IMG/VR virus record: IMGVR_UViG_3300031857_001534
Coordinates: 1-22,292 of that record
Length of the DNA stretch: 22,292 nucleotides
Strand: one strand, 5' to 3'
From: a virus
Below, in pieces: positions 10,726 to 22,292 of this stretch (within the stretch, counting starts at the first letter, position 1; every line of letters starts with the position of its first letter). Made by a program: the position numbers and the translations under genes. Below the pieces are notes generated by a model. That model was not told the origin of the DNA, did not search any database, and worked only from the letters and a program-made list of their open reading frames with translations.

Positions 10726-11292
10726 ATGACCAGAGTTGTAACCGGTAAAGTTCGCTTCTCTTATTTCTCAGCATTAACTGCTCGCAAGAATGAGATGAAC
10801 GGCAAAGAAGAGTTCAGCACACAAGTGCTTGTCCCCAAGACAGATACCGAGACTGTCAATCAATTAAAAGCGGCAGCCAAGGCCGCATTGACCGCCAAGT
10901 TCGGGGACAAGATTCCCAAGACAGTGCGCAATCCCTTGCGTGATGGCGACACTGAAGTCAAATCTGATGGATCACCACTAGGGGCTGAATATGCAGGCCA
11001 TTACTTTTTCAACACCAAAAGCACCAATAAGCCTGGCGCAGTGGATGCCCATGGCCATGACATTCTTGGATCACAAGATATTGTCTCTGGCGACTATGGC
11101 CGTGTTTCTTTGAATGCCTATGCCTATGACCAGGCAGGCAACAAGGGTGTGTCGTATGGCCTCAACAACATCATGCTTTTGTCTAAGGGTGACTCGCTGG
11201 GTGGTGCAAAGCCATCAGCGGCCAGTGACTTTGGCGTGGTGGCCGGTAAGAGCGCGCCATCTGCTGCCGAGTCAGTCGATAGCGACTGGTGA
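10726..11292 (+). CDS. DUF2815 family single-stranded DNA-binding protein
   Basis: A 188-residue protein with the DUF2815 pattern: TGKVRFSYFSALTARKNEMN near the start, then EFSTQVLVPKTD, NPLRDGDTE with SDGSPLGAEYAGHYFFNTKS in the middle, and YGRVSLNAYAYDQAGNKGVSYGLNNIMLL at about residues 125-153. The family is related to T7 gp2.5-type single-strand DNA-binding proteins with an OB fold. The C-terminus ends in an acidic stretch, ESVDSDW, as in such proteins where the tail contacts partners. It would coat single strands at forks and work with the primase-helicase and DUF2800 nuclease. AAAAGGA lies eight bases before the ATG. It is the first rightward gene, divergent from SNF2. Its end overlaps the opposing HTH gene by 21 bases. 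Confidence 0.92.
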   Translation: MTRVVTGKVRFSYFSALTARKNEMNGKEEFSTQVLVPKTDTETVNQLKAAAKAALTAKFGDKIPKTVRNPLRDGDTEVKSDGSPLGAEYAGHYFFNTKSTNKPGAVDAHGHDILGSQDIVSGDYGRVSLNAYAYDQAGNKGVSYGLNNIMLLSKGDSLGGAKPSAASDFGVVAGKSAPSAAESVDSDW

Positions 11293-11472
11293 TCTGTCGA
11301 TCAGTTTCTCAAGCGCCAAGTGCAATTGATTGACTGATGTCCAGAGTGGCTCAACAGTCCCAGACAGCCACCGGCTCACCTGGGACTGTTGGATGCCAGC
11401 CTCATTGCATACGGCAGACATGGTGATCTTGTGAGCCTTGGCCTTTGCCTTGATATCGTGAATTGATTGCAT
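11272..11472 (-). CDS. Small Cro/CI-like helix-turn-helix regulator
   Basis: A 66-residue protein. Residues 16-50 (ITMSAVCNEAGIQQSQVSRW, then LSGTVEPLWTSVNQLHLAL) give a complete XRE-type helix-turn-helix: helix 2 TMSAVCNEAG, turn IQQ, recognition helix SQVSRWLSG. Cro-sized repressors of this kind bind short palindromes as dimers. It is the only leftward gene between 10726 and 13861, lying tail to tail with DUF2815 (21-base overlap) and head to head with the gene at 11589. It has no strong ribosome-binding site before the ATG at 11472, suggesting low expression. Dyads at 11475-11547 are likely self-operators. Rightward transcription through DUF2815 would produce RNA antisense to it. Whether it sets lysogeny or only timing cannot be decided. 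Confidence 0.85.
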   Translation of the reverse strand: MQSIHDIKAKAKAHKITMSAVCNEAGIQQSQVSRWLSGTVEPLWTSVNQLHLALEKLIDRSPVAID

Positions 11473-15298: not shown

Positions 15299-17338
15299 TT
15301 ATTGGCCGTAGATAGGTCTTGGCGCTGTTGCACCAATGTAGCTTGCACCATAAGGCACAGTCTTTTCAAGCATTCTCGCACCAGCCGCCACGGCCTGCTG
15401 CAATCTGGCCATGCCGCTTTCATCACGCAATGCTTTGCGCACAATCTCTGGGTCTTCTGAGATCAGAATCTGGGCCACTCGCTGGCGGTCCTGTTCCGAC
15501 ATCCCCTTGTTTGCATCACCCAGCATTTTGCTAACCACTCGGAATGCAGCCATGGGGCTTCCACTGGCCGCGCTGGCCAGATCGTCAGCAGTAAGTGTTG
15601 AGCCAGTACGCGCTGCCTGCATTACCGATGACGCTGTATCCGACCCGCCAAGAACCCTATTTTTAGCAGCCTGCGACTGGGCAGCTGTGCCAATGCGGGT
15701 CAAGATGCCATCAAGCTCGTCACCAGGATAAATGGTGCGCAAGATAGCGCCTTGTTTGGTATCAGGACTGGCCAGCACACCCATCATTGACTTGGCGCGA
15801 CCTGACCCCATCTGATTGCGAATGGCATCCATAGCGCCAGCCCTAAACGCATTGACTGCGCCAGGGTTGCTGGCCATGTCTTCCATCATTATTTGGACTT
15901 CGTCTGCGCTCTTGCCAAAGATGGTGCGGCCTTCTTTGAATGCATCCCTGGCGCTTCTAAGCTGTGAGGCTTCAGCACGGGTTGCAGCCAGTCTTGGTGA
16001 TGATGAGTCAATGGCATCTCTCAAAGCGTTTTCAACGGGTTTAAGCGCTGCTCCAACACCACCCTTGCCACTTGTAAAGGCAGAGTCAATTGAAGTCTGG
16101 ATGCCTCGTCTGACAACTTCAGCATCCTCCAATGTTGGCGCTTTGGCAAACACAATGTTGCCATCTTTGTCAAAAGAGAAAAATGGTTTCTTACCTGTCT
16201 GGGCTGTGTAGATCGCGTTGATGTCGGCAATGGCCGTTGGTGATCTTTGTAGTGCGTCTTTAAGACTTACCAATAAATCTTGGCCAATGATGCCGCCACT
16301 GCCATAAGCGTCTTTGTAGGCTTGGTTTTCCAATGTCTTTGCTTCGTCATTGGTTGATCGGTAGAAACGCAAAACATTTTCATTCTGTGGGCGTGGTCCA
16401 ACAAAGTTGGGATTGAGACCGCTGACCAGCTTCTGCTGCATATCTGTCAATGCTTCTTTGCGCAGTGTGTCTGGGCGTGTAGATAAAGCGCCTTGAATTG
16501 TTGTCGATGCCTTGCCGCCTTGGGTGTACAGGCCACGCACAGCTTGCAGTAATGTTTGGTTTTCAGCCAAGATTTCGCCATTGGCAATGCGTTGCACAAT
16601 CTCATCTGTGGTGAGACCTGTCTCGCCTGCAAGACGCTGAATCTCAGCCTCTGCTGCCCTGCCACCGCGACCACCGGTCATGCGTCTGGCAGCATCGAGC
16701 GCCATGTCTGTGAGCTTGCCAACACCCATGAAGCCAGCCTGCACCACTGGGGCAATGGATGCGCCCATTATGGTTGAGCCTGGCACTCTGGCCGCACGGG
16801 CTGCAAAGTCGCCTTCACCAGTCATAAAGCCTGTGATGCCGCCTTGAAGACCGCCAAGCGCTGAAGTGCCTGCCAGTGCCTTAACCAATGGTGCGACACT
16901 GGCCGCCATGCGTGGACCAGTCAATGGCGCAGCTGTGCCACCAGTGGCCGCAGTCAATGCAGCCGCTGATCCAACACCGCCCAATGCCTCATAGCCTAAT
17001 GCTTCATAAGGTGACTGGGCCTGATAAGCCTTCATCTTGCCTTGAATTTCAGAAAGCACTTTGCCGTAGTCTTCGCCAGTGACTGATGCGCGCAGACGCG
17101 CTTCCATCTCATCAGCAGAGCCAAGGGTCACGCCCTGCGCAATAGAGCGCAGGCGTTGGGTTGGCGCTTGTGGCAGTGGTTGGGACAATGCTGGCGCTGG
17201 TGCTTGGCGATCAATGTCCAGACTCTGCGACAAAATGCCTTGGAGAATTTGAAGTTTTTCATTAGACAAGCCAGAGACATCTCCAGCCTTAATCTTGAGT
17301 AGCTCTTCGTTTGTGAAGCCTTCTAGTCCGGTGCTCAT
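15299..17338 (-). CDS. Candidate DNA-ejection (internal virion) protein
   Basis: A 679-residue protein. It begins with a helical N-terminus (GFTNEELLKIKAGDVSGLSN), then LRSIAQGVTLGSADEMEARL (63-82), a stretch common in phage virion proteins next to tail and ejection genes. Residues about 115-215 are Gly/Ala-rich with repeated small residues (GGVGSAAALTAATGG and GGLQGGITGF), as in amphipathic membrane-inserting segments. The rest is long helical material. This suits proteins that leave the virion and form a channel through the cell envelope, like T7 gp15/gp16 or P22 gp16/gp20, though no sequence match is claimed. The start at 17338 has GGAGGT inside the end of the preceding gene and overlaps its stop (ATGA). 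Confidence 0.75.
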   Translation of the reverse strand: MSTGLEGFTNEELLKIKAGDVSGLSNEKLQILQGILSQSLDIDRQAPAPALSQPLPQAPTQRLRSIAQGVTLGSADEMEARLRASVTGEDYGKVLSEIQGKMKAYQAQSPYEALGYEALGGVGSAAALTAATGGTAAPLTGPRMAASVAPLVKALAGTSALGGLQGGITGFMTGEGDFAARAARVPGSTIMGASIAPVVQAGFMGVGKLTDMALDAARRMTGGRGGRAAEAEIQRLAGETGLTTDEIVQRIANGEILAENQTLLQAVRGLYTQGGKASTTIQGALSTRPDTLRKEALTDMQQKLVSGLNPNFVGPRPQNENVLRFYRSTNDEAKTLENQAYKDAYGSGGIIGQDLLVSLKDALQRSPTAIADINAIYTAQTGKKPFFSFDKDGNIVFAKAPTLEDAEVVRRGIQTSIDSAFTSGKGGVGAALKPVENALRDAIDSSSPRLAATRAEASQLRSARDAFKEGRTIFGKSADEVQIMMEDMASNPGAVNAFRAGAMDAIRNQMGSGRAKSMMGVLASPDTKQGAILRTIYPGDELDGILTRIGTAAQSQAAKNRVLGGSDTASSVMQAARTGSTLTADDLASAASGSPMAAFRVVSKMLGDANKGMSEQDRQRVAQILISEDPEIVRKALRDESGMARLQQAVAAGARMLEKTVPYGASYIGATAPRPIYGQ

Positions 17339-18696
17339 TGCTGACCTCCAGAAGAATTCAATTGCAATTGTCTGTTAATAGCATCTAGCAATGGATTTCC
17401 ACCACCACCACTTGGTCCACGACGCATCAATGAGGGGATAGTGGCTGGAACGCCAAGGGCTGTATTAAGGTTTTTAAAGCCATAAGCATTACCAAATTGC
17501 TCATACTCACTGCGCTTTTGGTTGTATGCCTGACCAGCGGCTGCATACAGTTCATTGGACAAAGCCTTGAAATCTTCACGTTGAGTCGGTGTGAGCTTCT
17601 GGCCGGTCATCATGTTGTTGAAATAGTTGTTCAGTCGGTCCATGCGGCCAGCAGCGGCCATGGCAATGCCAAGCTCAGTCTCACGCACCACAGAGCCTGG
17701 GTCTAGCAATTTCATAACCTTGGTTGCACCAGCCACATCACCAATTGGTGTGCCTTGGCTTAAAGATGAAACCACCTGGCCAAAAGAAGACTTCATGTCG
17801 CTGAAGTCTTTGTAAATTGGCTCTTGCTTAAATGCACTGGCCAGCTTCATTTCATTCTCAAAGCCTTTTTGGCCACCAGTCATATCAATCACTGGTTTCA
17901 CATCCACACGGGTGGCAATCTGCTGACGATACTTGCCGACATCTTCTATACCTGGTTGGCCAGTTCCAGCCAATGGCCGGCCACTGATGTACTCAACGGC
18001 ACGAATGTCAGGTGACTGTGGCTCGTATGGCATAGCACCTTGGGCAATGCGTGGTTGGCCTTGCTTGTTGTACTGGACCATGACAGTCTTGCCATTCATC
18101 ACCACGGGCGTTGGAGCGCCATATTCAGCTTGTGATTGTGCAATCTTCAATACTTCTGGCAAACCTTCTTTGCGTGGCATTCCACCAATTAAGGCGCGTT
18201 GTGTTGGATTAAGGAATGCCAATGGGTCTGTGGAAGTTGCCACTGGTGTCGGCATTTGTGCGGCTAATTCAGCACGGGCGACTTTTGGACCAACTGGGCC
18301 GGCAACAGATACAGGCGCAGCCAAGGCCGCTTGCTCTGGAGTCAATGCAGTTGTTGGCTGAGTTTTGCCACCAATTAAATTTTTCCAAGACTCATTGCCA
18401 GCAGCTTCTGTTTGCATTTCTTTGAGTTTTGCACCCAAAAGCAAATTTTGAAAAGCACCAGAAGTGCCTTTCTCATAAGCACTTTGGCCAGCTTGCAGGG
18501 CAGAGCCAAGTGCTTGGCCCAGACCAATACGCTGGGGGCTTCGGCCACTGGCTTGAAGCAATGCGGCAGCAGCAGCCATTGTTGACTGCAAACCCAATTG
18601 CTCTTTTTGTTTGGTGGTCAATAACTTTTCAAGTTCACTATCACCACCACCGCCAAACAAATTGCCCAGTAGCCCATCAAAATTTAATTCAGCCAT
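17335..18696 (-). CDS. Candidate internal virion/ejection protein
   Basis: A 453-residue protein. The N-terminal region (QSTMAAAAALLQASGRSPQR, then GLGQALGSALQAGQSAYEKG, about residues 37-76) is a phage-typical Ala-rich helix pair found in virion operons. The middle is proline-rich and flexible, and the C-terminal half is helical (KSSFGQVVSSLSQGTPIGDV, NNYFNNMMTGQKLTPTQRED, and FKALSNELYAAAGQAYNQKR). Together with the two adjacent proteins it forms a probable three-protein ejection set. AAGGGG precedes the ATG. Role is inferred from position and composition only. Confidence 0.75.
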   Translation of the reverse strand: MAELNFDGLLGNLFGGGGDSELEKLLTTKQKEQLGLQSTMAAAAALLQASGRSPQRIGLGQALGSALQAGQSAYEKGTSGAFQNLLLGAKLKEMQTEAAGNESWKNLIGGKTQPTTALTPEQAALAAPVSVAGPVGPKVARAELAAQMPTPVATSTDPLAFLNPTQRALIGGMPRKEGLPEVLKIAQSQAEYGAPTPVVMNGKTVMVQYNKQGQPRIAQGAMPYEPQSPDIRAVEYISGRPLAGTGQPGIEDVGKYRQQIATRVDVKPVIDMTGGQKGFENEMKLASAFKQEPIYKDFSDMKSSFGQVVSSLSQGTPIGDVAGATKVMKLLDPGSVVRETELGIAMAAAGRMDRLNNYFNNMMTGQKLTPTQREDFKALSNELYAAAGQAYNQKRSEYEQFGNAYGFKNLNTALGVPATIPSLMRRGPSGGGGNPLLDAINRQLQLNSSGGQQ

Positions 18697-18706
18697 TTTT
18701 TACCCC

Positions 18707-19666
18707 TTAACCAATTAGGCCAAGAATGCCACCACCAATTGCTCCCAATGCCGTGCCAACACCTGGCACAACACTGCCTAGTTTTGCACCAGCCAATGCA
18801 CCACCTAAAGCGCCAGACGCTGGGTTTGAATACTGGGGCGTTGTGGCCACCATCCCAAGATTGGCAGGCTGCGCACCCAGTGAAGACTGGACCACACCAA
18901 GGCGCTGGAGGCCAATGTTGCGGATTGCATCCATTTGTTGCTGGTCCAATGCCTGACGCGCACCACCAGCGCCCATGACCGCTTGAGCGCCACCAAGACG
19001 CAATGCTTGTTGCTGTGCAGCCAAATTACCGAGCTGGCTTGCACCGCCTAGCCTCAATTGCGCACCTTGCAAGCCAGCTTGCTGATTGGCAATGTCGGCT
19101 GCTGATCTGCGTGCAATGTCTTGACCCTGCAAAGCCACTGCCTGGTTAAATGCCTGCTCGTTTAATGTTGCCCCAAGATTTGCAGCCTGCTTGGCAAACC
19201 CTTGGTTAGTCAAGCTCTCGGCCACACCTTGGCGTGATCCACCAAATGCACGGGCTTGTGTGGCACGTTCACCAGTCTGCTGGATGGCAGCGCGTCTTGC
19301 TGATTCCAAGTCAGCCAATGCGTTGGTGCGCACTTGCTCTGTAAATGGATTCATGTAAGAGCCAATAGTGCCTGCACCTTGGCCAAGACCTAGATTAGTC
19401 TGCTGCGCTGTGATCTGACCAGGCTGATAGACACCGCCATAAGCCGCCATTTGAGCTGCCAAGTCTGTGCCAGTAATGCCTGGGCCAGCGAGGGCCGTGT
19501 TGACCAGAGCCTCCTCGCCTGCCTGGTACATTGGGTTATAGCCAGCAAACTGCTGGACCGGCAATGCACCAGCGACCCCTTGGGCCTGCTGAAAGTTGGC
19601 CAAGAATGCCTCTTTGATCTGAGGATCAATCGAGCTTGTCGATGTAGTTGTTCCACCTTTTGACAT
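18707..19666 (-). CDS. Ala/Gln-rich internal virion protein with glycine-zipper tail
   Basis: A 319-residue protein. It carries a long Ala/Gln-rich helical region (about 110-230) with phage motifs YMNPFTEQVRTNALADLESA and RAFGGSRQGVAESLTNQGFA. The last 40 residues form a glycine-zipper-like hydrophobic segment (GALGGALAGAKLGSVVPGVG, then TALGAIGGGILGLIG), which could insert in or oligomerise at a membrane. Such proteins are small partners in the ejectosome of short-tailed phages; by layout it may correspond to T7 gp14 or P22 gp7, without sequence evidence. AAGGTGG precedes the ATG. It lies in the leftward order repeat protein, this gene, then the 453- and 679-residue genes. Confidence 0.78.
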   Translation of the reverse strand: MSKGGTTTSTSSIDPQIKEAFLANFQQAQGVAGALPVQQFAGYNPMYQAGEEALVNTALAGPGITGTDLAAQMAAYGGVYQPGQITAQQTNLGLGQGAGTIGSYMNPFTEQVRTNALADLESARRAAIQQTGERATQARAFGGSRQGVAESLTNQGFAKQAANLGATLNEQAFNQAVALQGQDIARRSAADIANQQAGLQGAQLRLGGASQLGNLAAQQQALRLGGAQAVMGAGGARQALDQQQMDAIRNIGLQRLGVVQSSLGAQPANLGMVATTPQYSNPASGALGGALAGAKLGSVVPGVGTALGAIGGGILGLIG

Positions 19667-19675
19667 ATTGCCACC

Positions 19676-20941
19676 TTATCCGAGTAAAGATTTCATTTTC
19701 TTGGCAGGCACTTTGCCTTCATTGATCATGTCCAGAAGTCCACGGCCATACTTATTGACTGAAGATTTCTTGATCACATACTCGCCACGATCTAGGTATC
19801 CAGCGCCATCATCTGGACCAGGAGGGTTCATGCCAAACAGGCCATCGACCATGCCGCCTTGGTTATAAGTGCCACTGACACTTTCACCAACGCCACCATC
19901 AGGGCCACTAGGTCCATCACCACCGCTTTCAACAATAGTATTGCCAGTGGCCAGTTTTGCCGCCTCGGCCTTGGCCGCATTAGCAGCCGCGATCTGGTCA
20001 TAGAGACCAGGGTTATAGCCACCCATGGGCAGATTGGCCACAACATTTTGGTAAGGATTGCCCACTGGTCTCATCTGGCCCATGATCTGGCCATAAGGCG
20101 ATCCAGTGCCACCCACTGCAAATGGGTTGTATTGAGCGCCAATTGGAATGGATTGATAGTTATTGAAGTTCTCGGCAAAGCCTTGTGTCGCACCAGCAAA
20201 TGGCGTAGTCGCTCTGAAACGATTTCCAACATCAGTTTCTGACACACCAGTCAGGCCAGACACTTGGCCAGTCGTAATGCCAAGACGATTCATCTCGGCT
20301 GCAATCTGCTGGTCAGTCAAGCCTGGAGTGGACTTGAGCCAGTTTGTGAATGTGCTGAAGTTGGCCTGATTTCCTGTTGTTGTTTTATTCAGTCCAGCCA
20401 GTCTTGCCGCTTCTGCTGCTCTAGCATTGGCCGCATTCAAAGCAGCTTGCGAATTAGCCAATGCCGTGGCATCAGCAGCCGCTTTAGCGTCGGCAGCCGT
20501 TTGCGTTGAAATTAGATTCAATCTAGCATTGATCTCATTGACCGGCACACCAGTCATTTTGGAAATTTGGTCAGCTTTTAATCCAAGACGATTAACTTCA
20601 CCAGCAATTTGCTTGTCGGTTAGACCAGGCGTTTGCAAGAAGTTATAGAGCGCAGTCTCTTGGGATGTGCCAAATGTTGGGGTTGTTGCACCACCACCAG
20701 TCGTGCCACCGCCACCACCACCACCACCACCACCACCACCAGTGTCGCCAGCAGCCGCTGTGCCACCTACTGTATTGGTGGGTGAAGCCAGCCTAGACTG
20801 GACAAGATCAAGTGGCACACCAGTGAGCTGCGACACTTGGGCGGCCGAGACACCTAATCGGTTGACTTCGTTGGCAATCTGCGTGTCTGTCAGACCAGGA
20901 GTCTGCAAATATGCAAGTAGTTGTTCGGTATTTGTGGCCAT
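19676..20941 (-). CDS. Virion-operon protein with three HTH-like repeats and polyglycine linker
   Basis: A 421-residue protein. Three similar units of about 44 residues occur at about 8-51 (LAYLQTPGLTDTQIANEVNR followed by LGVSAAQVSQLTGVPL), 98-141 (FLQTPGLTDKQIAGEVNRLG) and 200-242 (STPGLTDQQIAAEMNRLGIT). Each is a helix pair with a loop, outwardly like a DNA-binding HTH. The first two are separated by a Gly run of 12 (about 68-79), the others by an Ala-rich coiled segment. The C-terminal part has YLDRGEYVIKKSSVNKYGRG at about 382-401, a GEYVI motif common at the end of phage structural proteins. I chose the ATG at 20941, preceded by AGGGGA, over an in-frame start at 20968 inside the upstream gene. 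Confidence 0.78.
   Translation of the reverse strand: MATNTEQLLAYLQTPGLTDTQIANEVNRLGVSAAQVSQLTGVPLDLVQSRLASPTNTVGGTAAAGDTGGGGGGGGGGGGTTGGGATTPTFGTSQETALYNFLQTPGLTDKQIAGEVNRLGLKADQISKMTGVPVNEINARLNLISTQTAADAKAAADATALANSQAALNAANARAAEAARLAGLNKTTTGNQANFSTFTNWLKSTPGLTDQQIAAEMNRLGITTGQVSGLTGVSETDVGNRFRATTPFAGATQGFAENFNNYQSIPIGAQYNPFAVGGTGSPYGQIMGQMRPVGNPYQNVVANLPMGGYNPGLYDQIAAANAAKAEAAKLATGNTIVESGGDGPSGPDGGVGESVSGTYNQGGMVDGLFGMNPPGPDDGAGYLDRGEYVIKKSSVNKYGRGLLDMINEGKVPAKKMKSLLG
20705..20742. repeat. Trinucleotide (CCA)n tract
   Basis: A CCA/GCC repeat on the plus strand (20705-20742) encodes the polyglycine run of the repeat protein. Being a perfect triplet tract it can lengthen or shorten without shifting the frame, so linker length between HTH-like units may vary among related phages. 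Not a CRISPR feature. Confidence 0.85.
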
Positions 20942-20951
20942 ATCTATTCCC

Positions 20952-21320
20952 CTATAAATCCTTTGCAAGCACAGCCCATTGTGGACTGTAGCCTTCGTCT
21001 TTCAAAAATGTCTTTGACCAGCCTCTTCGGCCTGCCAAAGTCACCCTGGTGCAACCAATTGACTTGCCCCAGGATTCGATCAATGGTCGCATCCGTGAGA
21101 GTTCGTCTAGGTCTCCACCAGCTAAGAAGTAATGCAAATTCTTTAGCCTGGGATAGACAACGATCTCGGTTAATACCACTGAGTCCTTGGCCGGCCACAG
21201 CTGTAATCTGTGATCCTCGACCATCTCAGCGACATCGTCAAAATTATGTGTGCCTCCACTGTATTCTAAGGCAGCCTCCACATGATGGCGCAGCCTGTCC
21301 AATTGTTCTTGGTCGCTCAT
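20952..21320 (-). CDS. Acetyltransferase-like (GNAT) phage protein
   Basis: A 122-residue protein. The pattern EAALEYSGGTHNFDDVAEMV, then VLTEIVVYPRLKNLHYFLAG, LDELSRMRPLIESWGKSIGC, and a GRRGW.K turn at the end is that of small GNAT-like proteins frequently located among phage head and tail genes. GNAT enzymes move an acetyl group from acetyl-CoA. Here the canonical acetyl-CoA loop is poorly kept (AGRRGWSKTF), so enzymatic activity is uncertain and a structural role is possible. Its ATG overlaps the upstream tail-protein stop (ATGA); the repeat-protein ATG lies 10 bases beyond its own stop. Confidence 0.7.
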   Translation of the reverse strand: MSDQEQLDRLRHHVEAALEYSGGTHNFDDVAEMVEDHRLQLWPAKDSVVLTEIVVYPRLKNLHYFLAGGDLDELSRMRPLIESWGKSIGCTRVTLAGRRGWSKTFLKDEGYSPQWAVLAKDL

Positions 21321-22292
21321 CGCTTGCCACTTGGGACTGCATCGAGTCTAAAGATGCCCACCCGCCAGTCAGCCAATACCGCACCAGTCACCTTCACATT
21401 GACCTGACGGGCTGCAAACCGGACATCAGTCGGGTTGGCTGCCGTGTATGGTCCAAACGTGGACTGAGTCCCAGTGGGGTAATTTCGGGTTTTGAATGAA
21501 ACCACCGCCTCACCCAAGGTCTGCTCGTCTGGGACAACTTGGCGCACTGACATGATGTTGTCGCCATTGCCCAATTGCACTGGGCCAGACTCAGCATAAA
21601 GGCTGGCGCTGTCATAGGCAAAACCGACCTCATGCTCATAGATGTAACCATCAGTTGAAACCATCAACGGGTTAGTGAACACTCCAGCATCAGTGCCAGC
21701 AGTTCTGGCTAGTGAGCCGATGTTCCAGTGGTTTTCTCTGTAGTTGAAAGTGACATAGCTGTCATTCTCATTGCTGCCACTGCTTGGGTAATACCACCAG
21801 ATTTCACCAAATTGGCTGTTGTGGACCGCATAGACTTTGGATGCCTGATTGAAGTTGATATTGCCAAAGACATAGTCAGACACATCGCTTGGCAGTGGCT
21901 TGACATACCCGTCATAAATCCAGAAACCAGACTTAGACATCCAAATGGCAGCAGTGTCAATGGCCGCCACCGCTTGGGCCGAAATGAGACCGCAGCCAGA
22001 GCCAGCCTTCTCAAAGCCATAGACAAATGGAGCGCCAACATATTGGGCCGTGTGGACATCCACATCTGTAAACAGTAGGTTTACACCCTTGACCCGCTTG
22101 CCGGCCAGAAGTGAGCCAGGCGTTGCCAGTTCATAGTCGCCTGCCTGGTTGTCGCCTGCCGGTGTCCAAACTGTATTGTTCTCTTGGTCGCACCACTGCA
22201 CTTTGCGTGGATTCCCACCAGCGCCAAGGGCAAACAAAATTCGCTCGGCAGTCACCAAGACCGCCTTATTGCCTGTAGGCGCATTGGTAATA
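21317..22292 (-). CDS. Tail/hub-like structural protein, 5'-truncated by window edge
   Basis: The frame is open through the right edge: codons beyond 22258 read ITNAPTGNKAVLVTAERILF, so the apparent start TTG at 22258 is not the real start and the gene begins outside. The visible part (325 codons including the stop) has repeated beta-propeller-like stretches: LLFTDVDVHTAQYVGAPFVY, WMSKSGFWIYDGYVKPLPSD, AVHNSQFGEIWWYYPSSGSN and NYRENHWNIGSLARTAG. This series is one I recognise from tail-tube or hub proteins of short-tailed phages of proteobacteria, but the exact role is inferred. It is upstream of the acetyltransferase-like gene in the leftward virion operon and overlaps it as ATGA. Confidence 0.78.
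   Translation of the reverse strand, partial: ITNAPTGNKAVLVTAERILFALGAGGNPRKVQWCDQENNTVWTPAGDNQAGDYELATPGSLLAGKRVKGVNLLFTDVDVHTAQYVGAPFVYGFEKAGSGCGLISAQAVAAIDTAAIWMSKSGFWIYDGYVKPLPSDVSDYVFGNINFNQASKVYAVHNSQFGEIWWYYPSSGSNENDSYVTFNYRENHWNIGSLARTAGTDAGVFTNPLMVSTDGYIYEHEVGFAYDSASLYAESGPVQLGNGDNIMSVRQVVPDEQTLGEAVVSFKTRNYPTGTQSTFGPYTAANPTDVRFAARQVNVKVTGAVLADWRVGIFRLDAVPSGKR

Follow-up and report, generated by a model that had tools for sequence, protein, structure and literature searches.

Why would a phage place three helix-turn-helix (HTH)-like units, one after another, in a protein encoded within a virion-type operon? The preliminary description of this DNA, a 22,292-base virus record that was analysed whole and is referred to here as the window, proposed that the units could organise DNA inside the capsid or bind repeated host targets. 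The units form the N-terminal half of what is termed here the bead protein:

19676-20941, minus strand: bead protein, 421 residues, open frame starting MATNTEQ
20783-20920, minus strand: HTH-like unit 1, residues 8-53 (profile match, AlphaFold2 model of residues 1-53, shuffle test)
20516-20650, minus strand: HTH-like unit 2, residues 98-142 (profile match, shuffle test)
20210-20350, minus strand: HTH-like unit 3, residues 198-244 (profile match, shuffle test)

The tandem repetition is real. All three units, each about 46 residues long, carry PGLTDxQIAxExNRLG exactly, and their pairwise Smith-Waterman scores of 140, 104, and 107 stand against maxima of 46, 41, and 43 in 2000 shuffles each (z of 27, 20, and 22), at identities of 55, 51, and 45%. 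Profile scores for units 1, 2, and 3 are 78.3, 75.4, and 79.9 bits, from a profile seeded with the three units themselves, so these scores are not independent. Of the second motif originally described, V..LTGV, units 1 and 3 have exact copies; unit 2 has ISKMTGV. The units are under purifying selection, with a pN/pS of 0.32-0.36; this and all further pN/pS values derive from 16 multi-HTH sequences picked by hand.

The fold of one unit is, by prediction, HTH-like, as had been supposed from the letters alone. The AlphaFold2 model of residues 1-53, built on a 31-row alignment, has a pLDDT of 92.5 and is all-helical, with four helices (4-12, 19-29, 33-40, and 44-52). Among its best structural matches by VIA-align are the DNA-binding subdomains of ParB, Spo0J, and KorB (1vz0, 6s6h, 6t1f, and 1r71, with Z of 6.3, 6.2, 6.1, and 5.0), which cover 52-53 of the 53 residues. 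The N-domain of PEX14 (6s7m, Z 6.0 over 52 residues) and the uncharacterised protein 3rms (Z 5.4) also match, and all VIA-align matches of the unit lie below Z 8, where a match may reflect a common arrangement only. Sigma region 4 is likewise among the fold matches. The PEX14 N-domain is a peptide binder, and because it scores equal to ParB, the fold alone does not imply DNA binding. Foldseek of the unit against the PDB gives nothing significant (best E 0.85, to Spo0J); in a viral library the top match is A0A6J5M2G7, from an uncultured phage (E 0.034, probability 1.00).

HTH sequence-profile matches are recurrent and sub-threshold. Against curated HTH profiles, the window protein reaches 18.0 bits with Sigma70_r4_2, and the best simple HTH score among ten other proteins is 23.9 bits (L038), both below the cut-off of 25.7. 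Kinship of the units with DNA-binding HTH families is plausible. Several other candidates were rejected. DprA_WH in L132 (30.1 bits, cut-off 22.9) and the non-HTH family LEM in L047 (29.0 bits, cut-off 24) are sums over copies in which no single stretch passes. The PDB profile match to 8vd6 ("CAP REPEAT", E 2.5e-7) consists of five repeats of 5 bits each, from which no kinship is drawn, and kinship with carbamoyl phosphate synthetase (E 0.00095) was dismissed.

Do the units bind DNA? Three tethered HTH domains that hold DNA, either that of the phage inside the capsid or that of the host once ejection has occurred, would account for the fold and its ParB/Spo0J/KorB matches, for the recurrent weak HTH profile matches, and for the last 37 residues of the protein, which are basic (9 K/R vs 3 D/E). 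Such a role is nevertheless improbable given the charge of the units. Across 134 non-redundant units the net charge averages -0.8 per 50 residues (range -4 to +1), with 12 units positive, and at six recognition-face positions, placeable in 126 of the 134, only 5 of 756 residues are K/R against 110 D/E. Arginine occupies HTH position 18 in 118/126 units. A basic DNA-contact surface, judged from sequence positions only, was not found on the units. Seven control HTH domains (LacI, PurR, region 4 of RpoD and of RpoS, SopB, an XRE-like ORF of the window, and an HTH protein of MW202879) range from +0.9 to +5.3 per 50 residues, the lowest, LacI, overlapping the highest unit at +1.0; the last two are DNA binders by prediction only. 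The small XRE-like ORF lies at 11272-11472 on the minus strand, opposite to the ORF at 10726-11292, matches HTH_3 at 21.6 bits (cut-off 23), and is a possible regulator. Uncharged recognition helices occur in some real DNA binders, such as the 434 repressor.

A further point against DNA-binding beads is that relatives of the protein replace them with beads of another repeat, labelled NPDV in this analysis, that has no detectable relation to the HTH bead (hhalign probability 6%). Taken from sequence, DNA binding by the beads appears unlikely, and the bead protein is most likely no organiser of capsid DNA; on the charge of the units and of their recognition face, that role was dropped as the best reading. 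The preliminary description had named two properties that would speak against its proposal, the lack of a trihelical fold and an acidic recognition face. The second largely applies, while an HTH-like fold is predicted.

The units are separated by two linkers of different character:

20651-20782, minus strand: linker 1, residues 54-97, low complexity
20706-20741, minus strand: 12-Gly run, residues 68-79, from 12 copies of a CCA (plus strand) microsatellite
20351-20515, minus strand: linker 2, residues 143-197, Ala-rich, mostly predicted helix

The idea of flexible tethers suits linker 1, and residues 53-86 of the full-length model have a pLDDT below 50. It does not suit linker 2, most of which is spanned by one long predicted helix (residues 134-184). 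The full-length model has a mean pLDDT of 56.8; beyond the units and linker 2 its quality is poor. The polyglycine encoded by the CCA array occurs in linker 1 only. A Gly run of at least 8 before the core occurs in 3/79 family members, one of them the protein of the window and the other two near-copies, so the polyglycine is best seen as a local accident. Both linkers are less constrained than the units, with a pN/pS of 0.58 for linker 1 and 0.70 for linker 2 against 0.32-0.36.

The remainder of the protein is a conserved core:

19679-20206, minus strand: conserved C-terminal core, residues 246-421
19721-19786, minus strand: GEYVIKKSSVNKYGRGLLDMIN motif, residues 386-407, with weak likeness to tape measure protein stretches

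Core pN/pS is 0.24-0.31 (0.24 in the opening part), except at residues 331-360, where it is 0.75. The GEYV-type stretch resembles tape measure proteins weakly (E 0.009-0.3), with a tape measure annotation in 20 of the 30 records listed out of 39 matching; matches to tape measure PHROGs have E 1e-3 to 2e-5 at best. The model of the core is unreliable, with pLDDT mostly below 50. Since part of the core weakly resembles tape measure proteins, the C-terminal half may dock the bead protein in the tail or ejection apparatus. In one relative, L038 (3483-5012), a Hint/intein-like insert splits the C-terminal half; its profile scores, obtained for L038 only, are 27.4 bits (NF038136) and 23.6 bits (PF14890), both sub-cut-off. 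Longer bead proteins with a split core match, as in L038, are also seen in L036, L039, L040, and L124.

The phage is podovirus-like, of the LUZ24/phiM5 neighbourhood, and the genes around the bead gene support the virion-type operon that was first claimed:

21317-22258, minus strand: virion structural protein, phrog_3287 (E 9e-59); the frame may extend beyond the window end
20952-21320, minus strand: 122-residue neighbour, phrog_22172 (E 9e-9)
18707-19666, minus strand: 319-residue protein, weak match to phrog_4287 (DNA ejection, E 6e-4)
15299-18696, minus strand: two ORFs of 453 and 679 residues, phrog_13634 and phrog_5880 (function-unknown families)

The phrog_3287 protein has relatives in named phages under the names stabilisation, structural, tail, or hypothetical protein. 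It is taken here as probably of the P22 gp10/tail-tube-B type; a portion of the Sulfitobacter phage PhiGT1 paper gives the P22 tail tube B as gp10, partly beta-propeller (PMC10386132). The counterpart of the 122-residue protein in MW202879, a likeness judged by eye, is annotated as a putative acetyltransferase. The 319-residue protein is partly similar to gene 27 of Sinorhizobium phage phiM5 (38% over 28% of length, E 1e-6), a gene marked in that record as detected in particles. Other relatives of the 319-residue protein, in L141 (16228-17634), L142 (10394-11632), and L143 (13231-14136), carry annotations such as tailspike or chaperone of endosialidase, names that apparently stem from a C-terminal part absent in the window's protein. 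The 453- and 679-residue ORFs are ejection-like by position only. The bead gene is thus encoded beside ejection-type genes whose own identification is weak, as with the phrog_4287 match above, and among the 8 PHROGs listed for the bead protein at E <= 0.1 there is no ejection-protein family.

The slot of the gene is firmly held within the family. Among 78 other members examined, a homologue of the 122-residue protein lies directly upstream in 76/76 and a homologue of the 319-residue protein directly downstream in 61/61 with enough flank. MW202879 is the closest named genome (terminase 76%, stabilisation protein 71%), and its slot is taken by a Gly-rich ORF of 218 residues that has no annotation (L140, 17069-17725, minus strand), a mechanical ORF unrelated to the bead protein. 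In phiM5 there is no gene in the slot, and genes 26 and 27 overlap. Because the slot differs in the one and is empty in the other, the bead gene is considered accessory and dispensable in the wider group. The 217-residue gp17 of Octadecabacter DB2, which sits between an acetyltransferase gene and gp18, was dropped as a slot replacement; by eye it resembles the N-terminal portion of a protein of the phiM5 gene 27 type.

A position beside ejection-like genes, together with sigma region 4 and ParB among the fold matches, could also fit an ejected modulator, a protein that would reach the cell along with the ejection proteins and whose beads would mimic sigma region 4 or ParB so as to act on the transcription or partition proteins of the host. 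Such mimicry is very improbable: no conserved interaction surface was identified on the beads, and the NPDV beads that take their place show no relation to them.

How variable is the bead string? Relatives were collected in two scans of viral contigs, from the best 80 of 237 tblastn-confirmed relatives and the best 80 of 119 confirmed relatives, which together with the window gave 79 non-redundant proteins that share the C-terminal core. Near-copies persist among these, so counts are not of independent events. L087, L099, and L123 have units without the core, as their frames reach the contig end, and were excluded; L098 and L106 begin at the locus edge and may be incomplete. Two to six HTH units are present in 50/79 members (exactly three in 44) and one in 24, 20 of these divergent, so that bead number ranges from 1 to 6 across the family. 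Two members have NPDV repeats alone, two are chimeras (L100, with HTH, NPDV-like, and NPDV; L117, with NPDV, HTH, and NPDV), and one, L054, has neither. Coiled coils also occur in this N-terminal swap zone. NPDV beads match the PDB at E 0.0087 at best, over short stretches, and kinship between HTH and NPDV beads was rejected on the hhalign comparison given above.

The C-terminal half and the two neighbouring genes persist across the 79 members, while the N-terminus varies. On the core tree, at least 10 changes of architecture are needed (the minimum possible is 4), and the multi-HTH label alone requires 7 changes, of which well-supported branches force 5. The tree is drawn from the first 125 core residues, with few columns, for 78/79 rows (L098 omitted); 20/68 inner branches are open, and L047, L064, L100, and L054 form long branches. 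Of the 132 units in the 44 three-unit proteins, 121 have their nearest counterpart elsewhere (<= 95% identical) at the same position, and the three-unit layout reads as an old triplication with its order retained.

These patterns bear on a further explanation, in which the beads are a passive spacer or assembly module that packs on the 319-residue protein or tube B, or fills volume, with no host contact. Retention of the slot with both neighbours, poorly constrained linkers, and variation in bead number would all suit a filler. The clear purifying selection on the units would not, and swaps made while the neighbours stay the same would be strange if the beads formed an interface with one of these conserved proteins. 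A purely passive role is accordingly regarded as rather unlikely.

The family is found in viral contigs. Two scans of bacterial genome contigs gave 18 and 51 pattern matches with 0 confirmed relatives, and the whole bead protein has no match at E 1e-3 in 50,697 phage records. A single-unit query against named phages gave 3 matches at E about 6, which were set aside; the one inspected lies on the opposite strand to an annotated gene.

HTH beads are also carried by other proteins, in phages of other types, and the unit profiles from the bead protein and from these proteins align with an hhalign probability of 99.5. A bead opens frames of 613-742 residues in L131 and L133-138, and L132 has three beads in a 914-residue frame. 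The L132 protein is homologous to gp25 of Puniceispirillum phage HMO-2011 and gp35 of Roseobacter phage CRP-1; in its HMO-2011-type homologues (CRP-1, HMO-2011, and MW202701) no units were found. L133 and L131 have no match among named phages. In L130 (1470-3344), a weak DUF4214 match (20.7 bits, cut-off 23.2) is followed by one HTH bead. Surroundings were profiled for four of the loci: a tail-fibre-assembly gene lies directly upstream of the bead gene in L135, a tail-fibre gene four ORFs upstream in L131, an endolysin gene directly upstream in L132, with a tail-fibre-like gene more distant, and a tail-fibre-like gene downstream in L130. A third small module, of the GDI...FNLTDADL type, is common to L054 and L132 (z 11.8); it occurs in L054, L064-L066, and L132, joining the bead family and the HMO-2011-type protein, and the likeness between L132 and L065 is weak (score 47, no higher than the shuffle maximum).

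Strong unit matches are confined to one frame per record in 15/16 virus records searched, and G014 has one further unit match of 15 bits. Separate ORFs that look fibre-like by eye are present in the relative L004 (L150, 4820-5542 and 5555-7603). The bead protein is therefore unlikely to be the sole receptor-binding protein and is probably not the only adhesin.

The preferred explanation, held tentatively and at a little under even confidence, is that the bead protein is an accessory tail- or ejection-cassette protein with exchangeable protein- or envelope-binding beads, and not a DNA organiser. The C-terminal half would stay docked, and the N-terminal string of beads would make weak multivalent contacts with a host protein or envelope component, or with a variable part of the virion, and swapping of beads may tune infection of different hosts. 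The binding of repeated host targets, the earlier alternative, lies nearer to what module swapping would suggest. Counting against the tail/ejection-cassette explanation are the dispensability of the gene in the wider group, the recurrent sub-threshold HTH signals, the weak tape-measure likeness, the unreliable core model, and the uncharged recognition helices of some real DNA binders.

A broader proposal, possible and on the doubtful side, is that the HTH fold has been diverted from DNA binding into an exchangeable adhesion or peptide-binding bead, which several unrelated proteins from phage virion clusters combine in strings with beads of other types, tuning contact with the host envelope. 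Such beads would parallel BACON and Ig-like decorations in helical form, presented by the tail or ejection apparatus and not by fibres. If true, a shape usually read as that of a DNA-binding regulator would serve as a host-contact or assembly bead in phages of a group that metagenomes have revealed almost exclusively, and the swap zone would mark a little-studied interaction site beside the ejection machinery.

The bead protein can be compared with several known systems. The HTH subdomain of ParB, Spo0J, and KorB has a predicted fold alike over the whole unit; the unit differs in its 12-19% identity, its lack of a basic DNA face, and its location in a virion-type cassette. The PEX14 N-terminal domain shares the fold and shows that such a small helical shape is able to bind peptides. 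PEX14 is a eukaryotic peroxisome protein, at 12% identity to the unit, and kinship is not evident. The ejection (internal virion) proteins of podoviruses, gp14/15/16 of T7 and gp7/20/16 of P22 in the sections of a paper drawn on here (PMC8954989), occupy a neighbouring operon position; unlike them, the bead protein has no profile match to any ejection-protein family. Exchange of domains between unrelated phage proteins is described, in part of another study, as recent and tied to host interaction, and the HTH domains named there belong to regulators, integrases, transposases, and DNA-binding proteins (PMC10684548); here, in comparison with the carriers in those sections, HTH-shaped beads are found in a tail/ejection-cassette protein. 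Nothing comparable appears in open-licence PMC titles and abstracts on HTH repeats in virion or ejection proteins or on phage DUF4214. BACON is carbohydrate-associated by name, and no BACON domain is found in the window protein among Pfam families listed up to E 1, the unit model being all-helical. In the work on crAss-like phages, BACON tandem repeats are small domains associated with tail proteins, with a proposed host-binding role, and evolve via duplication and horizontal transfer of single domains (PMC6949934). The bead protein shares with them its tandem small domains and an association with the phage tail that the neighbouring genes suggest, and differs in its HTH-like helices. Because a conserved half joined to exchangeable domains matches the pattern in both studies (PMC6949934 and PMC10684548), weak multivalent binding is favoured, and by analogy the bead protein may function like tandem BACON modules, but with an HTH-shaped bead.
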